Source: Cephalotus follicularis
Lineage: Eukaryota > Streptophyta > Magnoliopsida > Oxalidales > Cephalotaceae
Assembly: GCA_001972305.1 (NCBI GenBank)
Contig: BDDD01001460.1
Coordinates: 62,001 to 126,000, forward strand
Reading direction: 5' to 3'
DNA length: 64,000 nucleotides
The notes below the pieces were generated by a model. The model was not told the DNA's origin. It saw only the letters and a program-made list of their open reading frames with translations, and did no database searches. Below, piece by piece: positions 3,398 to 62,900 of this stretch (its first letter is position 1; each line of letters starts with the position of its first letter). Made by a program: the position numbers and the translations under genes.

Positions 3398-4789
3398 TGT
3401 AACACCCCCGATGGTGGGAGCCCTTACAGGTCATAATACCAAACAAAACATAACAGAATAGCTAAACATGAACATTACGCAAAACGGATGTGGTGGTCTG
3501 AAAACATATCTTATTATCATATCTAATGTTTAACGAAGTCTGAAATTTCCACAAAGTCATAATCTGGAAACATAATCCGATATCCAAAATATTGTTTAAA
3601 AAGCAAATTAGTCTAATACTGTCCTAAAACATGATCAATACTAATGGAAACACAATGGACCAACTCCTAGATGATCCTCCGACAAGTGGGTAACTCTCAT
3701 CACACGTTTCCCCCATCCTTCTGGAAACTTGCCACATAGAAATAGAAACGCGGCTGAGCAAACCTCAGTACGGATAAGGAAAAATAAAACAGTAAACGGT
3801 GAACAAATAATTTGAACTTTAAATTCAGCAAAGTAACATGATAAATATTCTTCAAAATGTAAAGCAGAATATTTGAAAATGGGCAGTTAAAAAAAATTAT
3901 CATAACTTTACAAAAAACATAACATCATAGTTCAAAACTTTATCTGATTTCATAATTCCATAACAGAGAATTATGACATACATACATATATAGGTGCAAG
4001 GGGTTCGCAAGGCCCACATGCTCTGACGGAAAAGTCGTGTACGGCACTACACAAACAATCCCAATACTGAATTTCTGAATTCTAACAATAACTAGAGTAT
4101 ACTCATACGCCTCAAAAGGATCCATATCCTACCCTGAGGATACATATTTAAAAGAGACGTCGTAGACCAATCACACCGCCACGGTAAGTGTCATGCCCTT
4201 CGTACCAAAGAACATGCCTATGATACCTCATAGGTAGGGTTTTTCTCTGTATGTTATTATGCTAAAATATTGTTTTAATCTAAAGCAATTCTAAAACGTA
4301 ACAGATTTTCTAAACAGTTTATGAACATGTCCGAGATCAAAATCATATCTGAATTCATAATCCGATTTGTATATAAAGTTTAACATACTTCCTGAAGTGG
4401 AAGCCATGTCTAAAATAAATAACATATTTTTTATTGCGGAAAACATGCATATTAAAATCAATATCCGATGTAACAATAACAAAATCCAATTCGAATAAGT
4501 TATTGTCCAACGAGAATATACGTACCAAATATGAATTTTAATTCGAATAAAATCAAGAGCAAAATCATAGAAACATAAATCCAATTTACTTTAAAATCGA
4601 TAGGAGTTTATCAAAGAATGATGTATCCGTACCTTAGCAGTTCAAAAAATCTAATCAAACTAGAATACCAGACAAAAGCACCCTATAAGTGTCCTAAAAT
4701 CCACCACGGATGATATCAAGACCTAAACATATAGGCCCAAACATCACATAACATAAAAAGAAGCAAACATCAAAACTGCCAGTGAAAGC

Positions 4790-4930
4790 GTCGACTATTT
4801 ATTCTTAGGCGTCGACGGTTTCATTGCATAGAAGGACAAAGCGCAGAGCAAAGCGTCGACTAAACACAGCATAACATGTACAAAGTGGCGACGCTTAAAA
4901 GACAAGCATCGACGGTTTGCGTCAGACACA
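4790..4930 (-). repeat. TCGA-palindrome cluster 2 of solo LTR C
   Basis: About six copies of a GCGTCGAC-centred motif, some decayed (GCATCGAC, GTGGCGACGC), at 20-35 bp intervals. In the LTR's own orientation they lie at roughly +980 to +1120. Confidence 0.8.
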
Positions 4931-5654
4931 GAATACCAGTCCAGAACTAGTTTCAAATCCATGGTCAAATCTGATTTTTGATAAACACGATGCATAATTA
5001 ACAACATGTATGTTCTGTGACATGTTATATTAGTTCAAAAACGCCAGAATAAACCTATGATTTTATGTAAAGTATAAAAAACATTTTGAATTTGAAATTT
5101 TTGGATATTTAAACAGTTTGTACAAATCGGGAACTATAATCCGATTTTTGTTTCCCAAAGTATAAAACAGTAACATATATGTAGCTATAGCGTAACTTAT
5201 TTGATTAGAATTCCAGTATAACAAAATATGCACATAAATTTCATATATTAACAAATTAAAAATAGCAGAAAATTAGTTTCAACGGGTCTCTAAAATCATG
5301 CTCAAAAATTAAATTCTATTCGGTTTTAATACAAATTAAAGGGTGATATTGAAACTATGTAGTACAAACTACAATTTTTGTTTAGAAAATACCTTTAGAA
5401 AACGTCGTTTTGATGAAGATTGAGACCAACAAAGTTGCTGTGTTGGTTTGTAAGAAATGCAGAAATGGGTTTGAAATTTAAAAAGAATTCGTCTGATTAA
5501 TGCTCAAATCCGTGTGTTTAATGGCAAAATTCGGTATGTTAAAACATTTCCATATAGGCAAAAACGCGTTCAGCTATTTAGGAAATCAATTGGCCAGTTT
5601 ACGGAAAGAATCCAACATTCCAAAAACACTGTCACCGTCCAAAACAATTAAGGA

Positions 5655-5790
5655 AGACGCGTCGACAGTTTGCTGAAAGCGTCGATGGTTAAACACTTAA
5701 ATACAAAACGTGTCGATGTCACACGTTTAGGTGTCAACGTGTCTCACAGCACCCAAAGCGTCGACGGTTCTAATAAGAGTGTCGTCGCTT
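5655..5790 (-). repeat. TCGA-palindrome cluster 1 of solo LTR C
   Basis: Five or six copies of the GCGTCGACG / GTGTCGATG motif, roughly +120 to +260 from the LTR start in its own orientation. This is the same relative position as cluster 1 in J, K, M, E, I and H. Confidence 0.8.
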
Positions 5791-5918
5791 TGTGCCTAGA
5801 AAACAAACAAAAAATAAAATAAAATCAAAGAGTTAACACACCATAGCATATATCAAAAGGTATAAACGCAGCATAAAATGATAATCATGTAAGCATAGAA
5901 ATGGGTTATTACAACTAT

Positions 5919-6440
5919 CCCTGATTCTTTCCATGAGGCATCAACCATCCTCCACCACATTTTTGCTTCATCTTGGAGCATATAAGCAGCAAAAGCAACC
6001 TTCTGAAAATTTGGACACTCTAAGAACCCAAAAATCTTGTCCATATGTCTTAACCATTCTTCGGGGGCAACAGTATTTGAATCCCCTGTGAAAGTGGGAG
6101 GATTTAGCTCCAAGAACCTAATCAAGGGATCCTCCCTGTGTGTAGTCCACTCAACTGGTCTTCCTACTGCTTCTGCATGCCTAGCTGGTCTTGCAGCTGG
6201 GGTTTACTTTGCTATAGCCACTTGTCGCTGCATAATTTCATTCATTTGGGCCCTCATAGCATTCATCTCCCTCATATAATGTCTGGGCTACTCTTGAGCA
6301 GGAGTAAAAAATTCTACTTCTTGAGACACATTCTCTTCTTCCTGTTCTCCAACTTCTATATTGGCTCGGGTACGTCTCGTCGATGACCCTACTCCAGCCC
6401 TTCTTGCAGTTCCTCTTCGTCAATATCCATTTATCATATC
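5919..6440 (-). pseudogene. gag: Element B gag, N-terminal part
   Basis: Minus-strand translation gives the start of the retrotransposon Gag domain: FLELNPPTFTGDSNTV, then EEWLRHMDKIFGFLECP and DEAKMWWRMVDASW at 5930-6125. Upstream, an Arg/Glu-rich N-terminal segment in the same frame is broken by at least three stops (about 6170-6440). The frame ends at the ACTAT duplication of solo LTR C and resumes at 3392. The primer site lies about 100 bp upstream, the spacing expected between 5' LTR and gag. Confidence 0.8.
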
Positions 6441-6539
6441 CGCAACCCCAAAATAATTATAGCAATAATGAATCATCTTCTCCATGTCACTTAGTTCAAT
6501 AGCCAAGGATCTTATCTTGGCATATCCAGCATAGTTTAT

Positions 6540-6551
6540 GCTCTGATACCA
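6540..6551 (-). promoter_or_regulatory. tRNA-Met primer binding site of element B
   Basis: Minus strand TGGTATCAGAGC, complementary to the 3' end of plant initiator-Met tRNA, placed 6 bases from the LTR end. It fixes the orientation of element B. Confidence 0.9.
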
Positions 6552-7189
6552 CCAAACTATCACGCCCTGAACCATAAGGAGGACCCCACGGTCCGACACA
6601 TGACATGTCGTCCATACAAATCAATCATAATCATCCAAAATGAGCTCTAAATAAAAAACTTTTAATATATAATAATGCATGCGGCATTAACCATTCATAT
6701 CTTGCATGGATAAACCCAACATATACATCAACATCTTATATCTCAAGCTTTGCCACAAGTTTGCAGGTCAAGAATAACTGGAATACAATAATTCTAATAC
6801 ATCAAGTCTCTTATACAAGGAAGGTATAAACAGTAGGAATTGCGCTGCTGATGAAGCCTTGCTCTGCGATCTGACCCATTTGATAAGAGAAGTATCACCT
6901 GTACTTGCCCCTGGTTGTTGGGCATATATTTTGAAAGTCATCATCCATAACCTTCCATAACCATAACTATAAGGTTCCATCATCATTCATCTCCCGTAAC
7001 ATTCCAAAGCATCATGGGGCACATTTAAGCTCTCATCGGCCTCCTCTGCCGAAGTAGTAGACCATATACATTTCACAATCATCTATAGCCATACTATACC
7101 GTTCAAGGAAATAAAGAATGAGAAGGTAATACTTTCATCTGTCTATGTACTCTTGGTGTCGCAGGCAGAGAAGCCAAGATAAAACTGGC

Positions 7190-7494: not shown

Positions 7495-8110
7495 ACAGAC
7501 CTTCACATTGCAGAATTCACCCTTAGGTTCACATACTCATATGGGAAAATTCACACGTAAGTTCAACCTGCCAGAGTAACCCTTCACTTTGCAAAATTCA
7601 CCTGTAGGTTTACCTGCAATAGTGGCCCTTCACTATACGGAATTCACCCTTAGGTTCACCTGCTAGAGTAGCGGATTCACCATTAGGTTCACCTGCTCAT
7701 ATGGAGGAATTCACCTGTAGGTTCACCTGCCAGAGTAGCCCTTCACTATGCAGAATTCACCCTTAGGTTCACCTACAATAATGGCCCTTCACTATGCGGA
7801 ATTCACCTTTAGGTTCACCTACTCATATGCGGAATTCACCTGTAGGTTCACCTACTCATATGGCGGAATTCACCCGCAGGTTCACCTGCCAGGGTAGCCC
7901 TTCACTATGCGGAATTCACCCATAGGTTCATCTGGAATAATGGTCCTTCACTATGTAGAATTCACCCTTACATTCACCTACTAGAGTAGCGGAATTTACC
8001 CTTAGGTTCACCTGCTCATATGGAGGAATTCACTCGTAGGTTCACCTGCCATAGTAGCCTTCACTATGCAGAATTTACCCATAGGTTCACCTGCAATAGT
8101 GGCCATTCGA
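7495..8110. repeat. Minisatellite A in 5' LTR
   Basis: Second copy of the GAATTCACCCTTAGGTTCAC array, about seventeen units. Unit order and number differ from 410-930, so the arrays diverged by unit gain or loss after insertion. Confidence 0.85.
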
Positions 8111-8329
8111 TTCCTCTGTCATACTACGTGGGTACCTTCATAATCTCTATGACATAAAGGAGTATGGGTTTGGGTTATCTCGTCAGAGCTCGACAATTTT
8201 GAGCCAAGCTATGACCTTAGAGGTCTACAACTATAAAACCCTTTGGAAGATTGGTATTGGAGACCAATTGCTTCAGAGAAGGATTCACGTAGTCCGCACA
8301 GCCTTAGAGTTCCCTAAGTCCTAATGTCA

Positions 8330-8740
8330 GACTTGAGCTTTGAGCTCTGAACTCTTCCTCCGAGGTCTACCATCAAGCCTTGAGGTCAGACTTCGAGCTT
8401 TGAGCCTTGATGTCTGCCTTTGACCTCTACCTCAGAAGTTTGACTTCAAGCCTTAAGGTCAGACTTCGAGCTATTTGAACTCTGTCCTCTACCTTCAAAG
8501 TCTAACTTCAAGCCTTGAGGTCAGACTTTGAGCTATTGGAGCTCTGACCTCTACCTTTGAGGTTTGGTTTCTAGCTCTAAGGTATGCCTTCATGTACCAA
8601 TGTCTGCCCTCAAGTATCGAGGTCTGCCCTCGAGTACCAAGGTCTGCCTTCATATACCAAGGTTTGCCCTCGTGTACCGAGGTCTGTTCTTGTGCACCGA
8701 GGTCTACCTTCGTGTACCAAGGTCTACAACCTTTGCAGAT
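8330..8740. repeat. Minisatellite B in 5' LTR
   Basis: Counterpart of 1130-1510. It has one more of the ~60 bp units, followed by the 24-25 bp 'ccgaggtctgccctcg' units. Confidence 0.8.
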
Positions 8741-9582
8741 AGGCGAATACTGCCGTTCACCAGCTCATATTCAACTCAAATCCCATTAATCAATCCAACA
8801 CTCTATCTAGAGGAGCTATGATCCCTAGTGGTTAGTCACAACTCAGAAACCACTCTAACACTAAGATCCATACTCATGGATTCAGAATCAGCAGAGATAA
8901 GAGATTAGGCTTATAAGCCCGAAACTCCATCATCTCTTAGATCTGTATTTCAATCAACCATTCAACAAGTTAATCACCCTAACTTATGCATCTAGTCCTG
9001 ATCTAGCAGTTTATTACAACATATTTCATTTAAAGCAGTAATACGCATGAGTTCAAACATGTATGTAGAACCTACCTTGATAACGATTGAGACGGAGATC
9101 TGGGAGGACTGGCTGTTGAAACCGGTTACAGATCTGGATGAATCTGCTACTAGAACCGTGATTTGGTTCTTCCCTCAGGCTCTACACGCTGCTACTAGCC
9201 ATAGACTTCTTCTTTACTTGATTCCACCCACACACTCTCTCTAAGTGCAACGTTGAAACTGAAGTTCCAAGCTTCAGCATCGAGGGGAAAGAAGGAGAGA
9301 CGGTGAGGAAAAGATATCTCTCACTGAACGGTCGTTAGTAATCACCCATGGTTCATCACTTTCTCTCTTTCTCTCTTTAGAATAGGAGGCAAGAATCAGC
9401 CAAGTAACAATGGCTAGCTGCCCCTCACTTCGTGCCCAAAAGCTTTTTAAAGAAGCTACTATATTAATATTGGATGCATAACACTTGGCAAGAGATTGTG
9501 GTGGACACATGTCATGTTACCATACCATAGCACATTATCATTTAATACAACAATTTATACAAGACTCGGGACTTACAGTTCA

Positions 9583-10436
9583 TGTATAAGGATTGGTATA
9601 GTCCAAGCATCCTCTTAGGTCTATCCCTATAGACCTTGATTCCTAATGACACGAGCCGGCCCAGCCTACCTAACTTGGACGAGCCGGGTCATACGAGAAT
9701 TTCCATCATCTCCTCATCCAACTCAAATTAGCTTAACATTCATTAACTTTACAGGAGTTTTAACTAAGATTTCCTATTACATGCTTCCTCTAGCAGAGCA
9801 CACTAAGGCTTAAGATTAAGCTTAAGGCAGACTATGTTTCCTTCTTATTTCATATTCATATCCCCTGATTCTATATTCAGACTACATACGTCTGACCACG
9901 TGTTTGGCAGAGAAGAGGGCGTTGAGTACAGAGGTCAGCGTTTCAACCTTCAACTCTTCTTAAGCTTCTCTACTTCGAGGTTGACCTCTTCTTTGAAGTC
10001 TGCCATAGAGTTTTGAGCTCTGACTTTTACTTCCTAGTCTGACCTCTAGGATTTACCTAAAGTCTTTCCTTCCAAGTCTAACATCTGGTCTCTACTTCCA
10101 AAGTCTGCTCATCTACTCTAGCATCTACCCTTGAGGTCTGACCTTCGTCGCTGAGGTCTGTCTTACCACTAAGCTTCGCTCCCCAAGCTCTGCCTTAACC
10201 TCTATTCTCTGCCTAGTCCTCTGAACTCTTATCTCCACCTCTGTGCTCTGCACTATGGTCTCCTACATACTCAAATACTAACAATCAGCACAAGAATATC
10301 ACGGTCATTTAATTTCATTTCTTTCATCATATAACATAACATTTCCATGCACTTGAGTAGAGTAGCTGCATAGGCTAAGAATATATATATTTTTTGCAAT
10401 TAAACAGGCAATATATATATATATATATATATAGAA
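9583..10436. other. Degenerate LTR-like sequence with AT tract
   Basis: No coding sequence. 9960-10260 repeats the phrases of minisatellite B of element B ('gagctctgac', 'tctgacctct'), so it is probably a decayed LTR of a related family. It ends in an alternating AT tract (10411-10434) that directly abuts the first viral base. Confidence 0.45.
10411..10434. repeat. (AT)n tract at the viral junction
   Basis: About eleven AT dinucleotides immediately left of the pararetrovirus fragment, with a shorter AT run at 10381-10392. Confidence 0.9.
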
Positions 10437-11449: not shown

Positions 11450-13147
11450 ATGAATAAATTATGTAGAGCTATGTCTTTGAGATCATATAGTGGTTTAAAA
11501 AATAGTAATAATTCAAATAAAGATAAAGAATTAGATGAAAGAATAAAACAATGGCAAAATTAGAAACCCCCAAAGATTTCAAACAAAGAAATTTATAAAT
11601 ATAATACATTCAATCCTTTTAATTTTACTAAAAGAATTCAAACAATTGAACAAACTATAAAAATTACTAAAACTCAGCAAAATATCCAATTATTAGATGA
11701 GAAAACCATTAAAGAATTAGCCAAAAACTTTAAATATATTCATTTTGCTCTAGTTCAAGTAACCATTAAACCATTAACAAGACAAGGTTTAAACACTTCC
11801 ATCTTGGCATGTCTCTGAGATACCAGGCATTAAAACTTTGATGATTCCTTAATTGGAGCCATTGAAACAAGTCTATGTAATGGACCTGTCTATTTTGATG
11901 GGTATCCAAATTTAACCATTTCTTTAACAGATAAAAATATTTTAGAAACATTAAAGATTAACATTAAACTCCATGGTTACAATATGTTACCTGGATCTGA
12001 AATTATTGCTATTATTCACCACGTCAATTACAAAGATACTAATTCGATTTGTCCAAAATCGTTAGTAAATTTGTTAAAAGATGAAACAACAATGATGAAA
12101 TATGTCACAAATGATTCAAACATTTTAATCCCACAAAAAATTAAATGGAGTGATATCAATATTCTTGAGGATTGGTCCATACAATCCGATACTATTGCTC
12201 CTAACCAAGAAAATATTGAAAATACTTCTTTACATTCAATAACTCAAAATGAAGAAGGATTAGTAAAAATTAGGTTTGATAAAACTATCAAAACCCATTC
12301 AACTCCAGAAGATTTAAAAGAGAAATTTAATTATTTAAATATTTGTGATGAAAAATTAGATAAAAATTATCAACTTCAACCACATAGAGCTTCAACTTCT
12401 ATTATTAGATCTGGAAAAATAAATTATTTTGATACAAAAACTAAATTATCCGAGATTTCTAGCCACTCAAGTATTTTAAAAGGAATTTATACGCGAGATG
12501 ATTTTCAAAATTCCCAAAATGATTCTCAAGAAATTAATGAACCTATTTCCCCAACATATTCTGATATGAAACCTCATTCTCAGCTTATGACAATTATAAT
12601 TGACGAATCATTTGAAATTAATAAAGACTTAATAAGAAAAGATTTTCTTCAAGAAAAATATTTACGAAAAAGACATAAATTCTTTAAAAAATATTCTGAT
12701 ATTGAACAAAGTGATATTCGAATAGCATGGTATGAGTATATGGTTAAGATAAAGGCTCATGTTATGTTTTTCAATCATTTACCAATTTATAATAACCAAC
12801 AAGAAAATAAAAAATATTTTGAAGAAGAAAAAATCATTAAAAACTCACCAGAGAAAATTATTGATGGAAACACTAACATTAAAATTCACAATTATAAAAA
12901 ACATTTTGAACAAGAAAATTTTTTAGAAAACAATAATATAAATTTAGAAAAAGAAAATAAACATTTTTCTACAGAAGAAATTACTAGTATTCAGGAAATT
13001 TATGAGAATAATGATAATAAATTAGAACAAGTCGCACTAGAAATTCAAAATAATGAAAATCGAACAATTTCTATGATAAATACTGATAAACAAAAAGAAT
13101 CTAGTTTACTAATACAATTAACTGATAAGATTGATGACCTAGAATAA
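11450..13147 (+). pseudogene. Pararetrovirus polyprotein, movement-protein region and linker
   Basis: One frame from the ATG at 11450, broken by stops at 11561 (TAG), 11816 (TGA) and 11831 (TAA), then open to the stop at 13145. The segment 11700-12030 has the look of a 30K-superfamily movement protein (motifs KPLTRQGLNTSI and GPVYFDGYPNL), which would carry the virus through plasmodesmata. Residues after about 12030 form a Lys/Asn/Glu-rich linker with no recognised domain. The frame shifts in an A-run at about 13145 into the frame that continues with the protease. Three stops make this copy non-functional. Confidence 0.75.
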
Positions 13148-17041: not shown

Positions 17042-17205
17042 TGTAATAACCGCAAATTCAATTCGTGTACATTGTAATAATTATTAATAAAATGTGCACT
17101 CATTTGAATTTAATGTCCCATTTATTATAATTTGTGGTTGGTAATTGCTTGGGATGAATGGAGATGCGTTTTGGTGAAAATCCAAATCAAAGAAACCCTA
17201 AAACA

Positions 17206-17345
17206 GCCTTGACAGCCGACTACCACAAGGGGGAAGTCGACTGCCTGGTTTGTGAAGGGGCAGCCGACTGTCACAGGGGAGCAGTCAACTGCCTGATGCG
17301 TGTTGTGGACAGTCGACTAGCCAATGCATCCAGTCGACTGGATCG
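17206..17345 (+). repeat. TCGA-palindrome cluster 1, element E 5' LTR
   Basis: Six copies of CAGTCGACTG or its transition variants (CAGCCGACTG, CAGTCAACTG) at +165 to +304. The 3' LTR carries the same cluster at 24736-24875 with no change inside a motif. Confidence 0.85.
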
Positions 17346-18390
17346 GCCCATAATAGGTGTCTGTGCATGCCTGTTAAACTGAATCATGGGGGCTTTGCAT
17401 GAAAGGACAGGTGTTGGAAGGCGACACAAGCTGCCAGAGCATGCAAAAGGCATACTTGCATGCCTTCTATTCTCTGCAAGGATTGCAGACCTGCCACCTG
17501 CAAATTGAAAAGAGAAAAGGGGTAAGAAAACAAATGCATGTGAATGAGAGAAGAAGGGGAGAGAGGCTGGTAATGAAGCCTGGCGTTTCCAAAGTCTCAA
17601 AGCCTTATATTCAACTGTCCATGGGCTGAATGTGGGTGTTAGAAACCACTGAATTGAGGAGAATTGCTGGATAATTGTAGGAGCTTGCTTGTTGATGGTT
17701 TAGAGCTCAAAAAGGGAACTTGGAAGCTTGGACTCCTCCTGGTAAGTTCAAAATCGAACGCCCTGTTGTTGTTGTAATCTGTCAGTAAGGTATCTAGGAG
17801 AATATTTAATCCCTGTTAACATGGTTAAGGTTAACAACCTTCTAGAATTGAATGGGATTGATATGGAATGTAGCACTTTGGTTCAAGAAAAAAGGATGAT
17901 TAATCTCTAAATTGGATAGTAAGTTGTTGTTAGTTGCCATGATAAGCTACTGATTCCCTTATGGATAAACATACACATCTTCTGTCCACACGTTTATGAG
18001 ACAATGAATTGATGCAGATTGACACAAGTGCATAAGATGTGGTAAAAGGGAGTTAATATGAAGCTTAATGAACTAATGACTAAACTACTGTTGATTGGAA
18101 TTGTTATAAGTGTTTACTGAAACTACTGATACTGATGCATGTGTCCATAAACATGCATACATAGATTGAACCTGCTAGAATTGAATGATTGTTGTGGAAA
18201 AGGCTTGGAAACTTTAAAGAGAAAGATCAAATCCAATTGATCTTGGGATAGCGATTTGAGGTAGGGGTAGTGATATGTTATGGAAGATATTTATGCATGA
18301 CATGTATGTTATTTTCTGTATGATTGCATGTGTGAAGTTCGACATGGAATTGCATACAAACTGCTACTGCCTGCACTTTCTGGGCAGAGG

Positions 18391-18506
18391 AAGTCGACTG
18401 TTCATAATTACAGTCGACTATCCAACCTATCCAGTCGACTGCCAAGACAAAGCAGTCGACTACTCAACCAAAGCAGTCGACTATTCTTGAGGGCAGTCGA
18501 CTATTC
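18391..18506 (+). repeat. TCGA-palindrome cluster 2, element E 5' LTR
   Basis: Six GTCGAC cores in 116 bp, mostly as GCAGTCGACTATTC, spaced about 18-25 bp. The cluster lies inside the putative leader intron. Confidence 0.85.
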
Positions 18507-19842
18507 TGGGTAGAAATTGTATAACATTGATTGAATTGCTACTGTTTGGTACTGTTATTGAATTGTATATGCTACCACCATATAGTATATACTGTTCGAT
18601 GTTATTTAACATCGCTACTACCTATATTGCAACGATCAAACGAACTATGTGTTATATGCACAATTCATGGTTTAAACACCATTTTCAAATGGAAACTATT
18701 ATTTATAAGAACTACTGATTTGTGATATTGTTACTGTATATGCTACTTCATAATAGTATATACCAATGACTGTTATAACGTACTGTTTTCATATTCTAAT
18801 GATCAAATCAACTATGTGCTATAAGCACAATACATGAGATTATCTATCATTTTCAATTGAACACTTATTGCTAAAAAGGAACTACTGATTTTCCTCCTAT
18901 ATGAGAGGTACTTACTGTTTTGTTTCCTTATCTGGAAACCACTACTGTACTGATATCGTTTTCCTCACATGAGATGTACGATCACCGAAATGATATATGT
19001 TTCTAAAGAAAACACTTGATATTGCATATTATTGTATATGTAATATTACTATTGAATTGTACTGATTGAATTGATTGTCTATGTTACTGCCGTAGTTAGT
19101 GATAGAGGATATCACTGATTATGGATGCGATCCTGGGTGCCAGGAGTTGGCCAGAGTATCACCCAAACTATCTGCCATTGCAGAACTTACTGCTAAACTA
19201 CCTGCCAACGCCGGTAGTAAACGTTACCTGTTCTATCATCCTCGGTGTATAGGGTGATAGTTAGGTGGTGCACAGTTGGTGCTAGGAGTTAGCGATATGT
19301 GACACCCAACCACTGAATGAATTGATTGTATCCTTGTGCGGTATTATTGTATATGAACTGTTTATGGCCACTTGGCTTGATTGCTTACATATATTGGAAC
19401 GTTCAAATGTTATTTTATAAACTGTCATACATGTTGCATTCATATATTCCTTAGCATTCATTATCTTCCTACTTAGCCAAGTGAGGACAACGGCTAACCC
19501 TTACAATTACAGATTGAGTGAAGACGTGGGAGTTGCTGCTGAAGCTTGGAGAGCTTCTTTTGTCATCTTAAGGTTGTTATTTCTTTTGTTGTGTACTGTA
19601 ATTGTAACGAACGAATCATACCTCGTTTATGTTGTTTTTCCTTATGTTAAGGATAATATTTGACTTGTACCCACACGTAGTATGGGATGTGTGCGGACGT
19701 CTTGTATTATGTTCCGGCTTATTGACTGCTTCCGCATATTGTTTTATATCTGTTGAATGAAATGCTGGAATGTATGTTTAATACTGATATCACATATATG
19801 CTTGTCTTATGGTATGGAACCGAATAACGGGGTGAGACAGCA

Positions 19843-19854
19843 TGGTATCAGAGC
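19843..19854 (+). promoter_or_regulatory. tRNA-Met primer binding site of element E
   Basis: TGGTATCAGAGC, three bases after the 5' LTR end. Confidence 0.95.
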
Positions 19855-19942
19855 ATATTCCATATATGCTAGCTGGGATAAGTTTCTCGAAAATTAGTGA
19901 AATGTTTCCTAATGATTTTTGTCATTCCATATAGGAAACTAA

Positions 19943-20884
19943 ATGGACCCAAGAAGAGGACGAAGGGGAAGGCGTAGAGCCGAAGAAGGTGTCAACGCAC
20001 CGCCAGTACCTGGAAATGTTCCGCAAATGAATGAAGGAGTGAATGTTCCTCCAGTCCATGATGAGAGAAGTAATTTTGACAACCTAGCTGATATTTTTCG
20101 ACAGCAGATGCAAGCGAATGCAGCAAACATGGAACAAATCCGACAAATGTACGAGGCTAACCGGGCATATCAGCAAGCACCGGATGCTTGTCATGCAGGT
20201 GGATTTGGCCGAGATCTGGAGCGTTTCATGCAACAGAATCCTCTGACCTTTAATGGCGAGCTGAATGCTACTGCTGCTGAGCGGTGGATTAGAGATCTGG
20301 AGAAGATATTTACTGCTCTGGACTGTACAGATGAGCAGAAGCTCAGTTTTGCTGTATACCGCTTGTGGGGCGAAGCTACGTACTGGTGGGAGAGGACAGA
20401 AGCGAAATGGGAAGCCCGTAGACTTAACAGAACTTGGGATAGATTACAGTCTGAGTTTCTGGATGCTTATGTACCGCAGATAGAGTGTGACAGATGAGAG
20501 ACAGAGCCAATGGAGTTACGTCAAGGAGACATGACGGTAGCTCAGTACCAGACCAGATTTGTGGATCTGGCCAGACACACGCCTTATCTTGTGGAGGGAG
20601 AGTCACGGATGATCCGGAGGTTCCTAAAAGGCCTTCGAATAGATATGAGATCCAAATTGTTGATGTTGCAGCTGACCTCTTTTGTTGAAGTTGCTGAGAG
20701 GGCGATGATTCTTGAAGAAGATGCTAATAAGAGAAGGGCAGAACGGACTCGTACTAATCAATCGAGGGCCGTACAGTCACAGGGGCAGGGAAGCAATAAT
20801 CCTTCTAAGTCAAACAAGTCTGATAACAGAGGGCAAGGTGGTTCTCGACGCACACGATCAAGGACACCTGGCCTAAACAGTTAG
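19943..20884 (+). pseudogene. gag: Element E gag
   Basis: Starts at the ATG at 19943 (MDPRRGRRGRRRAEEG), about 90 bp after the primer site. The basic N terminus is followed by the retrotransposon Gag domain (WIRDLEKIFTALDC, then EATYWWERTEAKW at 20284-20410; ELRQGDMTVAQYQTRFVDLA at 20513-20572). Two in-frame stops break it: TGA at 20495-20497, where family members have a charged residue, and TAG at 20882-20884. The TGA is consistent with CpG decay of an arginine codon. Translation continues in the same frame into two zinc knuckles. Gag would assemble the particle and package the RNA. Confidence 0.9.
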
Positions 20885-24525: not shown

Positions 24526-24555
24526 TGTAAGGGCTAAATTCGAGGACGAATTTTC

Positions 24556-44484: not shown

Positions 44485-44765
44485 ACTTAAAGCGTCGACG
44501 CCTTATTTTCTACCATCGACGCTTATATATTTATAGAAAACTTGTTTTTGTGTCTTGCATGGGTTAAAAGCGTCGATTGTTTTTCGTTCATATCGATGAT
44601 TATATCTTAGCTATCGATGCTTTAGTCTAAGCGCCGACGCTTATGTCGTGCTTTGTCTTGCTTTGATCAAAGCTTGGTCTAGAGCTTTGTGTTAACGTTT
44701 AGTCTTAAGCGCCGACGCAATCATTTTAAGCTTCGACGCTTTAGAGACAAACGACAACGTTTTTC
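44485..44765 (+). repeat. TCGA-palindrome cluster 2, element J 5' LTR
   Basis: About ten copies at +832 to +1112. Comparison with 58620-58875 shows different copies decayed in each LTR. For example, AAGCGCCGACGCTT here (near 44632) is AAGCGTCGACGCTT at 58758. Confidence 0.8.
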
Positions 44766-50887: not shown

Positions 50888-51044
50888 TGTAACGCCCGGG
50901 ATTTCTGTTTATGTACTATTGTATTTTCCCATTTGTAAATTGTCGCAATTTAATGAGAAATGGGGAATTACCCTTTTGATAATGTTGTTTTTTGTGTAAG
51001 CAATGTTAAAAGGTTACTTTGAATTTAAAAGTTGGGAAATTGGG

Positions 51045-51205
51045 CTTAAGCGTCAATGCCATAAGCCAAAGCGTCGACGCCTCGCCAAGATAAAACGCAC
51101 GTATTACAAAATGCATAAACATCGACGCAATGGATAAACGTTGACACCAATAGAACAAATCACGACAAGCGCTGACGCTTATAGTTAAGCGTCGACGCTT
51201 TGTGT
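51045..51205 (+). repeat. TCGA-palindrome cluster 1 of solo LTR K
   Basis: Six to seven copies, including the perfect 14 bp palindrome AAGCGTCGACGCTT at 51187-51200 and GCGTCGACGC at 51071-51080. Confidence 0.85.
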
Positions 51206-51281
51206 CGAATATCAGATACCTATTAACACAGACAAAAACATGGAGGTGGAGGCAGAAAAAGAGCATATTTTAGGCGCTTTC

Positions 51282-53485
51282 TGTAATGACCGGAAATTTA
51301 CATCGAAGTATTGTTTAATGGGAATTCACTTGTTCTAAGTCCTATGTACGATGTAAAGTATGTTGTGTGACTTTGTGTCGTGTTTGCATCATGTTTGGTA
51401 TGAATGTCATGTTGAAAGCGTCGATGGCAAGGATTAAGCGTCGACGGTATTGTTTAAAGCACCGATGGAATACGGTAGAGCGGCAACGCTTTAGAGTGGT
51501 TTAAGGAAACATCGATTGGATGCCTCGAAGCGTCGACAGGCCAAGAAAATTTCACCTAAGCGCCGACGGTTCTACAAAAGCGTCAAAGGTTAAGCTATAA
51601 GCAATGACGCTTGGACCTCTTCTAACGCCGATTAAAAACAGGGGGTTTTCAACTTGGACAAACTCCTCTAACCGATGACGCTTAGACGAAAGCGACAGCG
51701 TTTGGATCTAACTGATGATTCCCTAAATGTAAGCTTCGACGCTTTAAAGTCAAGTGTTTCAGTTAGCCTGGACGAGACCCGAAAGCAGCGACGCTTGAAA
51801 GTGAAGCATCAGCGCTTTGACCCGTGAGGAAATTGAAGAACTAAGAACAAGCCTGTAAGCGGCGACGCTTGAAAGTGAAGCGCCGACGCTTTCGATTGCA
51901 GACTAGTTGCCAAATCTGACTTTTTGTCTTTTAGTGAGTAAATTAATATTAATGAGAAGACAAGTGTCAAGCTATGGAGAGGGGAGGCCAGATATTTTAT
52001 GTTGGAATGCCAAGTGTCACCATTTGCTTGGTGGATTTAGGCACATGGGTAACTAAAGGAGATGACTCATAAGAGAGAGGGAGAAACTTTCTCTCCAAGC
52101 AACTCAGCCTATATATGCATGTGTGTGACTTAAATTCAGTTAGTTTATCTGAGAAGAGAGTGTTGTCTACTGAGATTGAAGAGGAGAATCCAGATGAAGA
52201 GAAGGAGAAAGAGAAATCAAACCAAAGTAAGGAAATTCAATACCCATTTTCACCAAAGTTCCTCTGTTATTTTCTAAGATTATGTAGTAGATTATTTTAT
52301 TCATATCTTGCTCAATTCTTGATGAAATTTCGAATGGTTTAATGTTTTGGAAACCTTAAGATGTCTCCTTTAATTGTTATGTTTCATACATTTTGAAATT
52401 CTGTCGAATTCTTGAAGAGAATCCCTATTTCATTTTACTACTCATGTACTACTAGAATATGGAACCAGTGACTTTAAAATTCATAGCATATTCAATTCTC
52501 AACCAAATTTTATTAACCTTATCTTCCAGAATCCGTGGAGATGTCGACTTTAATCGTCATGTTCTAAGTTTTCCCTGAAAGTGCTCATTTCTATATGAAT
52601 TACCAGTTTTAGAAATGTTATGCAAGGCTGTTTTATGAATGTTTTGAGTTAATTACTCAAAGTGATGAAGATTCTTTATGAATTGTGAAAGGAAATTGTA
52701 CTATGTTGTTTTATGAATGCTTTGAGCTGATCAGTCAAGGTATTAAGAAATGTTTTATGAAATGATTTTATGAGATGGAAAAAGTTGACGAAATGAAATG
52801 AACCACTCTTTGATTGCGATCCAAGGGGAATAAATCCGAGATGCATTGATGTTATGGAGCGAGATGCTAACGGACATGCATGTGATGTAAGGATAGTAGT
52901 CGTGGAGTGCACAATACCCCGGTTAAGCGGAGTGAAAGAGTTCATTAAGGTTTACAAACTTTAAATGTTATGAATGTTCTGGTTATATGTTATGAACAGA
53001 AAATGAAATTTGATAAAGTATGGTTACTATGAAAACCTTACTGGGCTATTTAAAAGCTCACACCTTTCAATGTTTTTGGTTTTCAAATAAAATGTTTTCA
53101 CAAAATGATTGAATGAAAAATGCGAGCTTTAAGGGGGGGCTCATAAGAAGATGTTCTGAAAAGAATATGTATTATGCAATAGTGTTTGCATAAATAGATT
53201 TTGGAATGTAATAGGATAATGATGTTTTCCGTTGGATGATATTTTATGATAAATGATGCCATGTAAATGTATATGAACATTATGGCTTATGAGATCCTAT
53301 GATAAGATGATGATCTTTGAGGTTGAATTTAAAGTTATAATATATGTTGAAAAGTATGAGAATTTAATGGTGTACGTTAGCATTAGATAAGAATGCTACA
53401 GGATGTAATGGTTCACCCCACATAGCGCACTGACTCCTTAAAGTTTGCCTTGAGTTTTTAGCGGACTCGGATTGGGGGCGTTACA
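51282..53485 (+). mobile_element. Solo LTR H2 (family of H)
   Basis: 2204 bp, TGTAATGACC to GGGCGTTACA, aligned with solo LTR H throughout. The flanks are CTTTC (51277-51281) and CCTTC (53486-53490), a 5 bp duplication with one mismatch. TATA CCTATATATGC near 52109. It lies inside solo LTR K. Confidence 0.85.
51415..51900 (+). repeat. TCGA-palindrome cluster of solo LTR H2
   Basis: Fifteen or more motif copies over nearly 490 bp, roughly twice the span of the cluster in H. Mixed AAGCGTCGACGG, AAGCGCCGACG and opposed half-sites such as CGACGCTTGAAAGTGAAGCG. Confidence 0.8.
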
Positions 53486-54129: not shown

Positions 54130-54450
54130 ACCGTCAGCGCTCACGTTATAAGCGTCGACGCTTGGACTGTAAATCGTGGTATTATTACTGAGCGCATGTT
54201 AAACGTCGACGCCATGGTTCTTGGTATGGATATAGGCGTGATAATCGTCGACGCTTGAGGTCCTACCTCAAGGCATCAATGCTAAAGGAAAAGCGTCGAC
54301 ACTCAAGGTTCCTTACCTTGAAGCGTCGACGCCAAAGATAACTGATGACATGAAGAATGCCACTGGAAAGCGATGACGCTATGGAGTTGAGCGTCGACGC
54401 TTAGAGGACATAACCGTCGACGCCTAAATGATAAACGTCGATGCTTTAAG
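54130..54450 (+). repeat. TCGA-palindrome cluster 2 of solo LTR K
   Basis: About eleven copies, including AAGCGTCGACGCTT at 54150-54163 and GAGCGTCGACGCTTAG near 54389-54404. The position is about +1030 to +1350 after removing H2. Confidence 0.85.
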
Positions 54451-55830: not shown

Positions 55831-56044
55831 TGTAATATCCCGATTCATTGCCTATATACTTGTTGTCATATGTTATGTTATGTCACATGTTATAGGTGTT
55901 ATGTATTTTGTTTTGAACCGTTTGAAATTTGTTTTTAAAAACTATGTTCTTTTGTATTCTGGGCGTTAAGCGTCGACCCTTTGTAGTAAACATCAACGCT
56001 TTGGCACATGTGGAAAGCATTGACGCCTTGAGTTAACCATCGAC

Positions 56045-57991
56045 TGTGACGACCCGAATTCCCTTTTGTACTGTTCATGCATACATTGTACCGTATTGTA
56101 CTGTACTGAATTGTATTGAATTGAGGTATTCCTATACCTATTGTTATTGTATTGGTTATATGCATGTATAGTCGGGATTTTGGGCTGAGTTTCGGAGAGT
56201 TGACCGAATCGACTATATAAGTCAATTCTTTCTCTCATCTCTCTCACATTTCTCATTCTCCTCCCTCTCTCTATCCTTCTCCCTCTCTCTCTCTCTCTCT
56301 TATTGGCAGCCCCTCCATCTCCCTAGCAGCTGGATTGCATCTCCTTCTACAAGGACATCGATTGCATGTTGTGGGTTGCCGATTGAACAAGATATAGCGG
56401 GTTATTGGGCGATTTCTGCCGATTGATTGATTGGAAGCTCGACTTTTGAAGCTTTGTTAAAGGTTGGACTTCTTACCTGAATTACCTACCTCTTGTATTG
56501 ATTGAATGACTGATTGAATGATTGAATTGAATGAATTGGGTTTTTAGAGTTTTTAGCAAATCCTTGACCTAATTGCTAATAGAAAGATTGAAATGTTAAA
56601 TTGGAGGTTGTAACAAGTCTTACTAACCTCAAATGATTGATTGTAAACCTTGGTTTTTCAAAGAATGGCTTTAAATTGGATTTTGACTTGAGATTGGCCC
56701 TATTTTCTGCATAAAATTGACTCTGCCTAGCAAAGACATCGACCCCTAGCCCATGGACGTAGATGTCTTTCTCATCAGAGTGCTGTATCTTTGATTCTGT
56801 AGCAAAGACATCAACGTCTTTGCCTCGAGATGTCTTTCCGTAGGAAAGACATCGATGCCGAACATCGATGCGCATCCCAGGCTATTTTTATTGAAACGCG
56901 TCGATGCCTTTCTCCAAGGACATCGAGGTCTTCGGCCAGATCTCTACACAAATAGGGAAATACATCGATGTCTTTCAAAGACATCGACGTCTTTCCACCA
57001 TTTTAAAGAGGTGTCGATGTCTTTCGCCAAAGACATCGACGCCTAATGCACTGAAAGGAGTTTTTAACTGTTTAAAGCCGGTTTTCAACTTCTTTTCACA
57101 TTGTCACTTAACTGGCGCCTCACTTGAGGTGTTCAAGTGTTTGAAAACAGTTTTAATGATTGTACCGATTGATTGATTACTTGGGTCATAAGTGTTGTTG
57201 TAAGTCTAAGTTGATATAATGGACGCACGTTCCCATCTCTCCATTAGGCACCACCACTTATTGACTTGGCTCCGACATTGTATTGATACATTAATCGATT
57301 GCTTGAGTCATAGGTGTTGCTGCGAGTCTAAGTCAGTACGATGGACGCACGTTCCCATTTCTCCATTAGACGGCACCACTTATTGACCATACTTATTGAC
57401 ATTGAAATGATATTGTACTGACAGATTGATTGTATTATATGGATCCTATAGAGCGACCTTATGATTCGTGTCGGCAGGTTAGGTTGTTGACTCTATCCAC
57501 CTATTCCGTCGATCGTTTCATTTATTGTATCACCGCACATTGATATTGTATAGATTGTCACCGATATTGCACATTGTACATGCATACATGCTGCATGAGG
57601 TTTCTGCTTAGCCAGTGTGGCTAACCCCATCCTTCGGGGTGGGGCTGTGTTGTACCTTGTGTGCGGCATAGGTAGGGCAGTAGGTAGCAGCGGACAGAAG
57701 GATTGAAGACTCGTTCTGATCGCACGACTACTTGGGTATCGCATAGCTGGTTGTGAGATACTGTATTGAAAGATTGATAAGTGTATTGTAAAAAAAAAAG
57801 ACTAGTATTGTAAAAGATTGGTATTGTATTGTACAGTATGAATGGTTTACTGTATTGTATCTTCCGCAAATGATATGTATTGCAAAGTTTTAAGTTTTTT
57901 CGCATTTTTATATTGTTAGTCCCGACCATTGTATTGTGTATTGGATTGAGAATAATGCCACGTGTCTGCCCTGCGGATGCGGGGTGTTACA
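56045..57991 (+). mobile_element. Solo LTR L
   Basis: 1947 bp, TGTGACGACC to GGGGTGTTACA, flanked by TCGAC (56040-56044 and 57992-57996). TATA box CTATATAAG near 56212, pyrimidine tract, ATCGATG-type palindrome cluster (56735-57050) and hairpin TTAGCC-AGTGT-GGCTAA (57608-57624), followed by a second hairpin CCCCATCCTTCGGGGTGGGG. No coding sequence. Confidence 0.9.
56735..57050 (+). repeat. TCGA-palindrome cluster of solo LTR L
   Basis: About eleven copies of the AAAGACATCGATGTCTTT type (for example near 56961, 56979, 57012 and 57030), at +690 to +1005. Same TCGA centre as the other families, different arms. Confidence 0.85.
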
Positions 57992-58619
57992 TCGACGCTT
58001 TAAAAGTTAAGCGCCGACTCTTTCTCATGACCGACGACGCTTTAGTCGCCTTCCATTTTTGTGTTTGGATGATGGCTTGATTTTGGAAAAGAAAATTTTG
58101 CCATAAAACTGATTATCCGTTTGCCATATGTGTTTGGACGCGTTTTGCATAAAAGGAATGTCTTATTTCCACCCGATTTTGTCATTAAAACACACGTTTT
58201 CTTCTTTCTTTTTAAAAACTCATCACCTGCATTATTTTACAAGCAAAACAGAAACAGCCTTTTGCCATTGTCTTCTCTCCATTGTTTTCACGTCTTTGAA
58301 GGTATGTAAGCTACTTATTTTTTATTATCCTTTTATATTATTGTTTTGATAAATAGAAAACTTTTTGGTTTGTTCAAAACTTTGTTAATTATGCATGGAA
58401 ACTATTTTAAATAGTGTAAACTTAGAAAATATGTTTTGGAAGTTTTATTGCTACATTCAACTATAAATCCATATGTATATATATTTAAATTGTGATTACT
58501 GGTGTTTGTAATAGAGAAATCATGTTTTAACAATCACCTATTACTGTTTTATTAAGAAAAACTGGATTATGGTTCATGATTTCTATTTAAACTGCAACTG
58601 CATTTACATGTTTCAACTT

Positions 58620-58875
58620 AAAGCACCGACGGCTTATTTTCAACCGTCGACGCTTATATATATAGAAAACTTGTTTTTGTGTCTTGCTTGGGTTAAAAGC
58701 GTCGATTGTTTTTCGTTCATATCGACGCTTATATCTTAGCTGTCGATGCTTTAGTCTAAGCGTCGACGCTTATGTCTTGCTTTGTCTTGCTTTGATCGAC
58801 GCTTGGTCCAGCGCTTTGTGTTAACGTTTAGTCTTAAGCGCTGACGCTATCATTTTAAGCTTCGACGCTTTAGAC
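58620..58875 (+). repeat. TCGA-palindrome cluster 2, element J 3' LTR
   Basis: About nine copies including the perfect AAGCGTCGACGCTT at 58758-58771. Confidence 0.85.
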
Positions 58876-61667
58876 ACAAATGGCGACGTTTTTCCTCTAC
58901 TGTTGTGTTTAGCGTCTGTTATGTGATATTTGGATTTGGTTTGTATGTCTAGGTTTTGATAACATCTGTGGTGGAGGTTAGGCTGTTCCAAGTGTGCTTT
59001 TGATTCGTTTTTGGTTTAATTAGTATTGGACGGCTAAGGTGCGGATAATTCCTTCTTGATACTCTTATTGGTTTTGTTAGAGTAAAAACATTATTTTATA
59101 AATAATGTACGGATTCTTTGTTCTTGGTTTATTCCTTCGGTTTTTATTGAAATGAATTCAATTTTGTTTTAGCACAGATTTATTTATGTTTCGGATATCT
59201 CTATCGGTTTATTCCAGTTTAATAAATAAAATGCATATTTTATTTTGTTAACTCCTTTTAATTATTTGTGGAATTAAATGAGCATGACTTTCAATTTTGA
59301 AAGTATGTTGATATTTTACGGATATGATATTAATTTCGGATATGTTCGGAAAATGTTTGGAAACCGTTTATGATTTGAATTGTTTTTAGAATAAAGCAAT
59401 ATTTTGGAATAATGACATACAAATATATACCTACCTATGGGGTCCCATAAGCGTGTTCTTTGGCGCGGAGGACATGACACTTGCCGTGGCGGTGTGATTA
59501 GTCTACGGCGTCTCTCATTGTTATTTTGATCACCTGAGTGTGATATTCGGACAGAGGCGTATGGGTCGACTCTAGTTTATTATTGGATTCGGATTTGGAA
59601 TTGATTTTGTAGTACCGTACACGTTGTTCTGTAGAAGAATGTGGGCGTTGCGAACCCCTTGTATATATATATATATATATATATTCGGATTCTCTTTATG
59701 GAATTATGAAATTATGGAATTTTGACATTTCAGAAATTATGGAATTATGACTTCGGATAAAATTATGAAATTATGAATTCAGATATTATGAGATTTTATA
59801 ACTGTTTCATAAATATTCTGTTTTACTTTATGAAAAAGTATTTTATTCATGTTATGAATGAAATTGTTGATTTTTAAAGTTCACATATTTATCTATCCTT
59901 TTAAATTAACGTTTATTGTTTTATTTCCTATATCCATACTGAGGTTTGCTCAGTCGCGTTTTTGTTTCCATGCGGCAGGTTTTCAGGAGCGCCATGGGGA
60001 TGTGTGATGAGAGGTGTCACCTTATGTCAGAGGATCACCTAGGATATTGGTCCTACTTTGTTTTAGTTGTTTGATGGTCGTGTGTAGACCAGTGTTTTGG
60101 AAAAACAATTTTTGGATTTTGGATCTTATGTTTTGATATTCAGATTATGTCATTATGTTATTTTGTTTTGAAACCACCACGTATTTTGAATAAAGTTAAT
60201 CATATGTTTTGTTACGCTTTGTTAAGTACTCCCACGTATTTTGAAACCACCACGGATTTTGTACTGTAAGCACTCCCAATCCGTTCGGGGGTGTTACAAT
60301 TGGTCTGTCACACCCCGTTCATAGAGAATGCAACATTAAAGCGGTAAAGCCAATTAACATAAAGTACAGCTCATGCAAAAACTATAAAATTAAAAGTTTT
60401 CCAAGAATAACAGTTGAAGCATAACAAGTTCATAAGCTGTAACATGTAACGTGCGTCCCATACCGCACGCTACCCAAATACAAGTCATCAAAGTTAATCG
60501 CCCATAAAACGGGGCGTGAATTACAGTACAATATGAAATTCCTTCAGAAACAGAGCCATAACAATGGTACATCCCAAAACCATAATCCACGTGGGTTTAA
60601 ACAAAACAGGAAGATAAACAGAATCAAGATTATAACAGCTTGATCTTCGTCCATGCCGGCCCAACAGTCCACTGCATCAATCTGTAAAGTAGGGGGTTAG
60701 CCTTTGTCCTCACTCGGCTAAGTCATAACAGTAAATCGGGATCAACATAATGCATGTCATGATATGAATGCATAAATGATGCAGTACAGTGGAGTCCCAA
60801 TTTATACATATATGAAAATATATATACGTGTAATAGTACAGTAAAATATCAGTATTACATATATAAGAAATATTTGTATACAGTAACAGTATAGTAGTAA
60901 CCCGGCCAGGGCTACGTCAACAAACACAGCAATCTCCAAGAAGGACCAACAGGCAGTACAGTATGTCCACATAGGACTACAACAGGCAGTATGTCCACGT
61001 AGGACCACAACAACAGTATATCCACATAGGACCACAACAGGCAGTATGTCCACATAGGACCACAACAACAGTATATAGCGCCGTCAACTCCTGGCCCCAC
61101 GCTACACTCCCACTCCGGTACCTACATCAGGTGACCGAGCGAGGCAACAGTACAGTGAGTCACCTAGCCATGCTCCTGGCCCCTAGGTACAACCCTACCA
61201 CTAGTCGGCGCTGGCAACCTCCGCCATGCAACTAGTAGCTCAAACACAAACGCATAGCAATTCACAGAGCAAACAGTGAATTCAACAGTAATAGTGCAAT
61301 AAACAGTAATGATCGATTAGATCGTCAACATGCAGTTGTTTTCCAAAATGTTTCCCAAAAGACAGCATTTGAAAATAGACATTTTCAGTAGAAAATATCA
61401 AAAAACAGTTCAGTAGCGTAAATTGTTTATCAGTTCGGTCGAAAATACGTTATTTAACCAATACATATTTTCATACTCAAAATATCATATTCCAAGTTCA
61501 TGTATGCATCTCTAAATATCAATACTTTAGAAATCACAAACAATTCATAGACAGTATACAATCAGGCAGTAAACAGTGCATATGCAATGCATACATATGC
61601 TCAAATGCACCCTATAGGAATCATGATCGTTTCGTATCGTTATATGAAGAAAAACCCCAAACAGTGA

Positions 61668-62000
61668 CAAAGACGTCGATGTCTTTCAGAAAGGCGTCGA
61701 TGTCATTCCCAACAGGCGTCGATGTCCAAGTCTCAGTGTCAGCGCGTTCTTCTACAGAAGGCGTCGATGTCCATTTCATACGCGTCGACGCTCAAGGTCT
61801 GAATCCTTAAAACGACACTGTATTGTTGATGGCGTCGACGCGTTAAGGTAGGAACCTTAGGCGTCGATGCCTTTCACGTCAAAAATCCGGGGCGTCGATG
61901 TCTTTCCATAGACGTCGATCCCTTTCAATCAGTAACCAGGCAAAACTAAAAAGACGTCGATGTTATATAAAAGACGTCGATGTCTTTTCCAACAGTAGTC
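61668..62000 (-). repeat. TCGA-palindrome cluster 2 of element M LTR
   Basis: About twelve copies, mostly AAAGACGTCGATGTCTTT-like or GGCGTCGATGTC. Solo LTR K has GCGTCGACGCTT at the homologous place. Confidence 0.85.
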
Positions 62001-62724
62001 GTCTTCTACCTCACGACTCAACAAACGGTGGCCTTAACAACCCATAATCATGCATAATAACAGGTAATCGAGGCAAGGAACTAACATGCAGATACTCAAA
62101 ACATATCTAGCATATCATGGCATCAATCCAGTAACAAAATCAGTACAAGATTTATGCATTTTATACATCCAAAACCATATACCATGCATGGACATCAAAC
62201 TCGAAATTACAGTATGGCTTTCCCCTACCTTTTGTTCCAAGTTAGGAACTGGAAAGCCCACCTCTTTTCGTTCCCAACAGGTCACAGCAGTCCCTCTAGG
62301 TTCGTCCCACAGCTGCACTGGTAGCTCCAAGAAAACTCAACAATGGTGCTTCTCACATTCACTGTTTTCTTTCCTTTCTTTTGGTGTTTTAAAATGAGAG
62401 AGTGGAAGTGGGGAGGGTTGTTCTTATGCAGATTGCTCCCCCTCTAACATTCTTCTCCTTGCATTTTATGGGCACTCTCGTGCTCTCTCTCCTTTTCCCA
62501 GATTCTGCATCTTCCCCTTTGTTTTCATCCTTCTTTCTCTTGCAGGTTGCATGTGAGGATGGTGAGTCCCTTGCATGTGCCATGTGAGAGGCCTGTTTTG
62601 GCATTCCTGGCAACCTACCAGCATGATCAACACGTCACCATGCACTTGTAGAGGCATCTGTAAAGTCCCCAAAGATCCCCCACTGCATGTTACTCTGTCA
62701 GTGAAAAACGTGACAGACATTCTT

Positions 62725-62900
62725 TACAAAGGCGTCGACGTCTTTACTTAGACGTCGATGTCTTTTCCAATTTTGTAAGAAGGTGTCGATGCCTTCTCCC
62801 AAAGTCGACGTGCATGCCCATGCATTCACGTGTACCTCAATCCTCATAGGCGTCGACGTCTTTCCAAAGACGTCGATGTCTTTGTCCTAGAACAGCGCCG
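62725..62900 (-). repeat. TCGA-palindrome cluster 1 of element M LTR
   Basis: Six copies (GGCGTCGACGTCTTT, AGACGTCGATGTCTTT), +152 to +327 from the LTR start, the same motif version as cluster 2 of this LTR. Confidence 0.85.

Follow-up and report, generated by a model that had tools for sequence, protein, structure and literature searches.

Several long terminal repeats (LTRs) in a 64,000-nucleotide stretch of the Cephalotus follicularis genome (contig BDDD01001460.1, positions 62,001 to 126,000; referred to as the window) carry clusters of short palindromes centred on TCGA, and the question raised by this locus is what such clusters do and why LTRs of different retrotransposon families have them in common. 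The host genome comprises 1.58 Gb in 9,746 contigs, and the window is rich in LTR retrotransposons. An original prediction, made from the window, described non-random palindrome arrays in two nearly constant zones of unrelated LTR families; its observation was confirmed and its interpretation is partly supported. The reading favoured here, with some reserve, is that the clusters are arrays of predicted sites for host DNA-binding factors that serve the Ty3/gypsy and the Ty1/copia superfamilies alike. The comparison set outside the window consists of an unrelated 200 kb (C1:1-200,000), labelled L005-L024, and the further LTRs L028 and L033-L040.

The palindrome feature is real and strong. Among palindromic 4-mers in the window, TCGA has the largest share of extended palindromes (39/240), followed by TATA (33/411). 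The commonest palindromic 10-mer in C1:1-200,000, N runs aside, is CAGTCGACTG with 60 copies, and TATATATATA occurs 53 times. TCGA-centred palindromes number 90 in the same 200 kb against 10.9 expected from a first-order Markov model, by which AT-repeat centres are also in excess (ATAT 79 vs 20.2, TATA 76 vs 16.6). Genome-wide copies were counted as exact matches, repeat counts being lower bounds, and the same pattern read backwards served as the control. Counted in this way, CAGTCGACTG, GCGTCGACGC and AAGCGTCGACGCTT occur at least 197,377, 73,186 and 18,108 times (controls 939, 121 and 15, respectively), and AAAGACATCGACGTCTTT and CAGCCGACTG, on both strands, at least 37,431 and 177,392 times (controls 161 and 1,330). 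The predicted non-randomness of the arrays is supported. Gypsy cores are mainly GTCGAC or ATCGAC with CAG, GCG or GAC arms; the T of the core is not universal, C being found in 11/49 CGACT-anchored gypsy sites. Sequence like the listed gypsy LTRs (27% of 264 kb) holds 91/159 CAG and 41/80 GCG sites with at most one mismatch. Some of the sites beyond it are located in copia LTRs and others outside any assigned LTR.

The gypsy sites are of three types, CAG (CAGTCGACTG), GCG (AAGCGTCGACGCTT) and GAC (AAAGACATCGACGTCTTT). A division into three separate classes was dropped because nearest-class scoring and pair counts show that GCG and GAC mix, leaving two classes, CAG and GCG/GAC; the claims of sharing, exclusion and switching rest on this contrast. 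Genome-wide, like-class pairs within 45 bp number 64,805 for CAG-CAG and 5,066 for GCG-GCG, and there are 3,695 GCG-GAC pairs. CAG-GCG pairs number 4, where random association would give about 36,000 by an arithmetic that ignores descent. Among 82 CAG-GAC pairs, 80 stem from a single copia array repeated with an identical spacer (seen at L005:7511-7562).

The gypsy LTRs of the window and their clusters, with group assignments by LTR similarity, are as follows.

3398-5913, minus strand: LTR E, a solo LTR with target-site duplication (TSD) ACTAT/ACTAT; group B by tail similarity; GCG/GAC class; cluster 1 at about 5656-5769, cluster 2 at about 4786-4917
17042-19839, plus strand: 5' LTR of element H; CAG class; cluster 1 at about 17232-17343, cluster 2 at about 18389-18505
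19840-24571, plus strand: internal region of element H, with gag, protease, reverse transcriptase-RNaseH, and integrase with SH3 and a weak chromodomain
24572-27370, plus strand: 3' LTR of element H; CAG class; cluster 1 at about 24762-24873, cluster 2 at about 25920-26036
38336-40850, plus strand: LTR J, a solo LTR with TSD CTTGG/CTTGG; homologue of LTR H; GCG/GAC class in both clusters, at about 38573-38631 and 39649-39726; eight further copies, L033-L040
43654-46173, plus strand: 5' LTR of element K; group B, GCG/GAC class; primer-binding site (PBS) after the LTR; cluster 1 at about 43791-43871, cluster 2 at about 44490-44741
50888-53485, plus strand: LTR-like segment I, of the GCG/GAC class; its sites extend from 51069 to about 51745
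55831-60298, plus strand: 3' LTR of element K (LTR M), interrupted by an insertion at about 56044-57991; cluster 1 at about 55968-56048, cluster 2 at about 58642-58870
60306-63052, minus strand: LTR Lm; group C; sites mainly GAC, some GCG; cluster 1 at about 62730-62881, cluster 2 at about 61671-61985

Segment I is assigned to group C from its LTR start alone and its flanks lack a TSD, so its ends are tentative. In outline, element H (17042-27370) is a complete element, with two 2.8-kb LTRs at 98% identity and flanks GGTTT/GGTTT. Its Pfam domains are Ty3-type (RVP_2, RVT_1, RNaseH, H2C2 integrase and SH3_Tf2-1, in the order gag-protease-reverse transcriptase-RNaseH-integrase); the gag match is slightly under the Pfam cut-off, as is Chromo (E 0.0036). 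The gypsy elements of the window are classed here as probable chromoviruses. The element PBS is TGGTATCAGAGC, which we take to be an initiator tRNA-Met site, and Tekay/Del is presumably the lineage name of these gypsy chromoviruses. Beyond gag-pol, the internal region of element H contains no open reading frame (ORF) of 150 aa or longer.

Measured in bp from the LTR start, the two clusters are located as follows.

E (window): 151-250 and 1003-1121
H (window): 197-294 and 1354-1458
J (window): 244-289 and 1320-1384
K (window): 144-211 and 843-1081
Lm (window): 178-316 and 1074-1375
L010 (outside): 207-256 and 1408-1428
L011 (outside): 176-246 and 1278-1298
L020 (outside): 142-240 and 1009-1197
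L024a (outside): about 156-225 and 1127-1189
L028 (outside): 178-248 and 1292-1373

Near-constant placement was tested independently by applying the originally predicted zones (+110-330 and +650-1470) to eight LTRs outside the window, and it held: 50 of their 56 RTCGAY sites fall within the zones, a 12.8-fold excess (p 1e-14). Five of the six remaining sites belong to LTR L024b, in which hybrid sites such as GCGTCGACTG are found beyond the usual zones (L024, minus strand, LTR +2327..+2426). As corrections to the original prediction, the second cluster of LTR I is diffuse, cluster 1 is absent from L009 and L024b, and L017 and L019, with 0 and 4 RTCGAY, have no array. One class is kept across both clusters in all 11 two-cluster LTRs (E, H, J, K, Lm, I, L010, L011, L020, L024a and L028) and in 8/8 further J copies, each site being assigned to its nearest class with ties and two unclassed sites set aside (ties with CAG are seen in J, K and L024a and in three of the J copies). 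TTATAT, a TATA-like box, is found at +483..+609 in 14/16 group A LTRs (absent from L010 and L040), with cluster 1 upstream and cluster 2 downstream of it; among the gypsy groups, TATA was placed in group A alone. A donor-like GTAAGT follows soon after this box in 6/8 group A LTRs tested, namely both H copies (H1 and H2, +698), L011 (+648), L023 and L024a (+613) and L028 (+643), and from its position cluster 2 could lie within a leader intron.

Related LTRs can differ in class. The similarity of LTRs was expressed as z scores from 20 shuffles per comparison. LTRs J and H, which the original prediction had treated as unrelated families, are homologous at the start (z 6.1), mid-region (15.4) and tail (62.8) though their classes differ. 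The three regions are common to H, L010, L011 and L024a, which are of the CAG class, and to J, of the GCG/GAC class; L023 joins this group A in the start alignment, L028 and L023 do so in the tail tree, and the group A branch support is 97/99. In both clusters the J sites align with CAG sites of its group A relatives, with recognisable flanks, and the pattern recurs in eight more J copies, whose identity to J is 88-96% where they match its first 715 bp. The hybrid site CAGTCGACGC is present in 3/9 J-family copies (L033, L035 and L036). Group B likewise contains E and K of the GCG/GAC class together with L009 and L024b of the CAG class, with tail similarities of z 19.8 (E-L009) and 27.9 (K-L009). 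No tail pair between groups A and B exceeds z 6, though a weak likeness is seen between their LTR starts (J-E z 6.6); groups A and C have tails in common (H-L020 z 12.8). Provided that A and B represent distinct lineages, the class has changed at least once in each. Judged by these alignments, the supposedly unrelated families are LTR groups with recognisable relatives in each.

Neighbouring sites are usually 20-21 bp apart, with secondary peaks at 27-28 and about 41-42 bp, in place of the 20-35 bp of the original prediction. Among the 64,805 CAG pairs within 15-45 bp genome-wide, 38,192 lie at 19-22 bp, against about 13% if evenly spread. Spacers were compared in the 86 CAG and 50 GCG plus-strand pairs listed, which are the first in contig order and therefore a non-random sample. 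In this sample, 57/86 CAG and 35/50 GCG pairs lie at 19-22 bp, and with similar spacers removed 41/66 neighbour pairs still occupy these 4 of 31 possible distances (p 1e-20). CAG spacers of length 11 resemble one another to the same degree as shuffled spacers do (0.253 vs 0.247). In GCG spacers of length 11 the palindrome extends into the outer bases, and the inner positions give 0.222. A tandem satellite was ruled out, most spacers being unlike.

The arrays are not confined to gypsy elements. Three copia-type, Sirevirus-like LTR pairs with CAG or GAC arrays upstream of TATA were found in the comparison set.

L005:4376-5461 and 9487-10000: CAG class; the sequence stretch ends within the 3' copy (L005b)
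L015:2703-3854 and 6035-7186: GAC class
L020:7624-8788 and L021:1085-2249: CAG class

These LTRs contain 9-15 CGAC array sites, mainly at intervals of 20-22 bp, the first at about +165..+180 and the last at about +480..+592. The array is followed by TATA in L005 (CTATAAAAGG, +562) and L015 (CTATATATAG, about +655); the TATA pattern was not matched in the L020 copia LTR. C stands at the dyad in 18/24 CGACTG-anchored copia sites. The copia-type gag PF14223 is present in L005 and L015 and is the sole domain so identified among the ORFs scanned. Polypurine tract (PPT)-like tracts of the GGGGGAG type precede the 3' LTR at 9199, 9238, 9349 and 9477 in L005 and at 5909, 6001, 6024 and 6141 on the minus strand of L015. 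The L005 and L015 LTRs are alike at 215/471 positions before TATA, a poor alignment, and at 367/519 (71%) after it; what is claimed from this comparison is a class difference between related LTRs, not between matched sites. At E 1e-8 none of the gypsy LTRs in the set is similar to these copia LTRs. An array at L005:7459-7669 mixes CAG and GAC sites on a 21-bp grid, and 80 similar CAG-GAC places are found genome-wide. The best alignment of L005:7381-7760 is L020c, with both classes present and no clean site-to-site match; the mixed array is an amplified form that may be transitional or recombinant. Transposase_32 matches under the Pfam cut-off are located at L005:7701-8147 and 8247-8885, inside a copia-type element.

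The closest known system is the repeated motif (RM) of the Ty1/copia Sireviruses (Bousios et al. 2010, PMC2829016). The RM consists of 8-32 short dyads per element, mainly in the upper LTR half and upstream of TATA; it starts 200-400 bp into the LTR, its arms vary between elements around a common, mostly CGG-CCG core, and it forms CpG islands. TCGA-centred cases are known from Vitis (CGGTCGACCG) and Tnd-1 (ACAATCGATTGT), and multiple PPT copies are a Sirevirus mark (PMC2829016). The copia LTRs described here show these traits, namely multi-copy dyads upstream of TATA, starting slightly earlier than published, and multiple PPT copies. The arrays as a whole resemble the RM in their short dyads, arm variation and, in part, TCGA centres, and possibly in CpG density. 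However, the RM was described within the copia elements compared in that source, whereas the present arrays are also found in Ty3/gypsy chromoviruses, in two clusters, with two classes common to both superfamilies, 21-bp spacing, exclusion and class changes between homologous LTRs. The gypsy LTRs fall outside the RM description, element H being Ty3-type and not Ty1/copia and the core not being CGG-CCG. The available text of PMC3601003 describes no equivalent arrays in plant chromoviruses, and none in gypsy LTRs appear among the titles and abstract openings listed from the literature. One or more of the exact site strings occur in 121 published texts, and among the 15 of these listed none concerns plant LTRs by title. 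The original statement that no equivalent is known for gypsy LTRs has to be qualified, the RM being a near counterpart from copia LTRs (PMC2829016). The arrays in gypsy LTRs, the two exclusive classes common to both superfamilies and the class switching are new.

Each site is a dyad that spans roughly 10-18 bp, is centred on (T/C)CGA and resembles a dimer site. Under the favoured reading, sites about two helical turns apart would place adjacent dimers on one face of the DNA, where joint binding is possible. Each class would be read by a different factor, one of which an LTR must match, and the output would be LTR transcription, with the arrays acting as enhancers. In gypsy group A the two arrays flank the TATA-like box, cluster 1 on its upstream and cluster 2 on its downstream side; two copia LTRs have a single long array immediately upstream of TATA. 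A class that is constant across both clusters and changed together in related LTRs is expected if each class has its own factor. The two-turn spacing, the mostly unlike spacers, the dyads, the class exclusion and the sharing between superfamilies, taken as a whole, suggest DNA-level action by proteins, which would most simply be host-encoded. The predicted selection or convergence on a DNA-level signal, likely with a dimeric binder, is supported to this extent.

Several observations weigh against this reading. Cluster 1 or all sites are missing from some LTRs, and the tail tree leaves the position of J within group A unsettled, with one class change there being possible. CAG spacers of length 10 (12/500 shuffles reach their similarity) and GCG spacers of length 11 (0/500) show somewhat more likeness than shuffled spacers, mainly in the outer bases, and spacings of 27-28 bp are not whole helical turns. 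GCG and GAC mix freely, also in Lm, K and J, which leaves a separate GAC reader unsupported; in L023, whose sole cluster is cluster 1, three sites are CAG and one is GAC-nearest; and one copia array family combines CAG and GAC. Class exclusion could be partly plain descent within families. GCG sites are often lopsided (in J the right half GACGCTT is retained and the left half is loose), so a strict dimer is not established. The J copies keep the CG pairs of site cores hardly better than others (core 70/81, arms 77/90, elsewhere 174/214), and their column conservation in sites (0.933 vs 0.882) is biased by site picking; selection on site CGs within the J family is weak at best.

The main rival explanation is that the CpG- and CHG-dense arrays are host targets for LTR recognition and methylation by small RNAs and methyl-readers, with class changes representing escape from small RNAs. 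Its appeal lies in the 37/43 CG columns that fall in the two cluster zones when the 9 J-family copies are aligned over roughly their first 1,600 bp, in the symmetric CG and CHG positions of CAGTCGACTG, in the CpG islands made by the Sirevirus motifs (PMC2829016) and in the small RNAs drawn to structured Sirevirus regions (Bousios 2016, as cited in PMC10760457). A target of silencing should, however, be lost and not retained at 21-bp spacing in two superfamilies, and small-RNA escape fails to explain identical classes in copia and gypsy; this explanation is considered unlikely. Inheritance or recombination of one ancestral array block between elements, with no present function, would account for the similar distance from the LTR start across all groups, the weak likeness of group A and B starts (J-E z 6.6) and the roughly 80 copies of the mixed copia array. 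It is regarded as quite unlikely, given that the copia LTRs lack homology to the gypsy LTRs and that the homologous flanks in group A accompany different classes in both clusters.

An autonomous retrotransposon might instead encode an array binder with an anti-silencing role, as VANC does for VANDAL elements. The targets of VANC, according to PMC5735166, are likewise short motifs, dense in non-coding regions, that vary between related elements. They are also tandem and of one orientation, with an element-encoded reader (PMC5735166 and PMC10398659), whereas the present sites are dyads with mostly unlike spacers. In element H, the one element examined, the internal ORFs of at least 150 aa are only gag-pol, and the same classes serve copia and gypsy; the VANC-like factor of the original prediction is accordingly improbable. 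Least likely is a function at the RNA level, such as dimerisation or packaging through hairpins or kissing loops. Cluster 2 does fold better than shuffles in six CAG-class LTRs (z -2.3 to -7.1), in the 3' H LTR (-7.9), in L020 of the GCG type (-4.3) and in K and Lm (-2.5). Yet z ranges from -1.7 to +1.0 in 8/9 J-family copies with the array kept (L036 -3.6) and is -1.3 in E, the spacing is DNA-helix-like, and cluster 1 of group A is upstream of the TATA-like box. RNA dimerisation or structure, another proposal of the original prediction, thus does not serve as the shared function, and the RNA structure of the arrays looks like a by-product. The present arrays agree with Bousios 2016, as reported in PMC10760457, in tying LTR palindromes to cis-regulation and host recognition; they differ from the RNA structure and small RNAs argued there in that structure is not common to all arrays.

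Returning to host DNA-binding factors, a broader and more tentative proposal is that a few such factors with fixed dyad specificities drive or de-silence much of the LTR load of the genome through a shared cis-code. Sirevirus-like copia and chromovirus gypsy elements may then have converged on two exclusive classes and a 21-bp geometry, and lineages may switch factor by rewriting all arms with positions kept. The role of plant LTR palindromes has been open since the Sirevirus motifs were described, and the sharing, fixed spacing, exclusion and class change open one answer, a host factor per class, to direct test. If this is true, a handful of proteins would have hundreds of thousands of sites to act on and would influence a large part of the transposon activity of this 1.58-Gb genome, and families would compete for the factor.

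Further arrays were found in the window, two outside assigned LTRs and one within a nested insertion.

35499-35606: GCG-type sites, outside assigned LTRs
54150-54445: GCG-type array, outside assigned LTRs
56847-57044: GAC-type array (ACATCGATGT, ACATCGACGT) within the insertion of about 1.95 kb nested in LTR M

At 11984-13147, an ORF of 387 aa with a DUF7588 match (E 4.9e-17) is followed by an ORF of 416 aa with no Pfam match at E 0.001. Minisatellite arrays with GAATTCACC...AGGTTCACCTGC units are located at 413-904 and 7513-8108, in a long-repeat pair (410-2382 and 7637-9577) that is about 80% identical.

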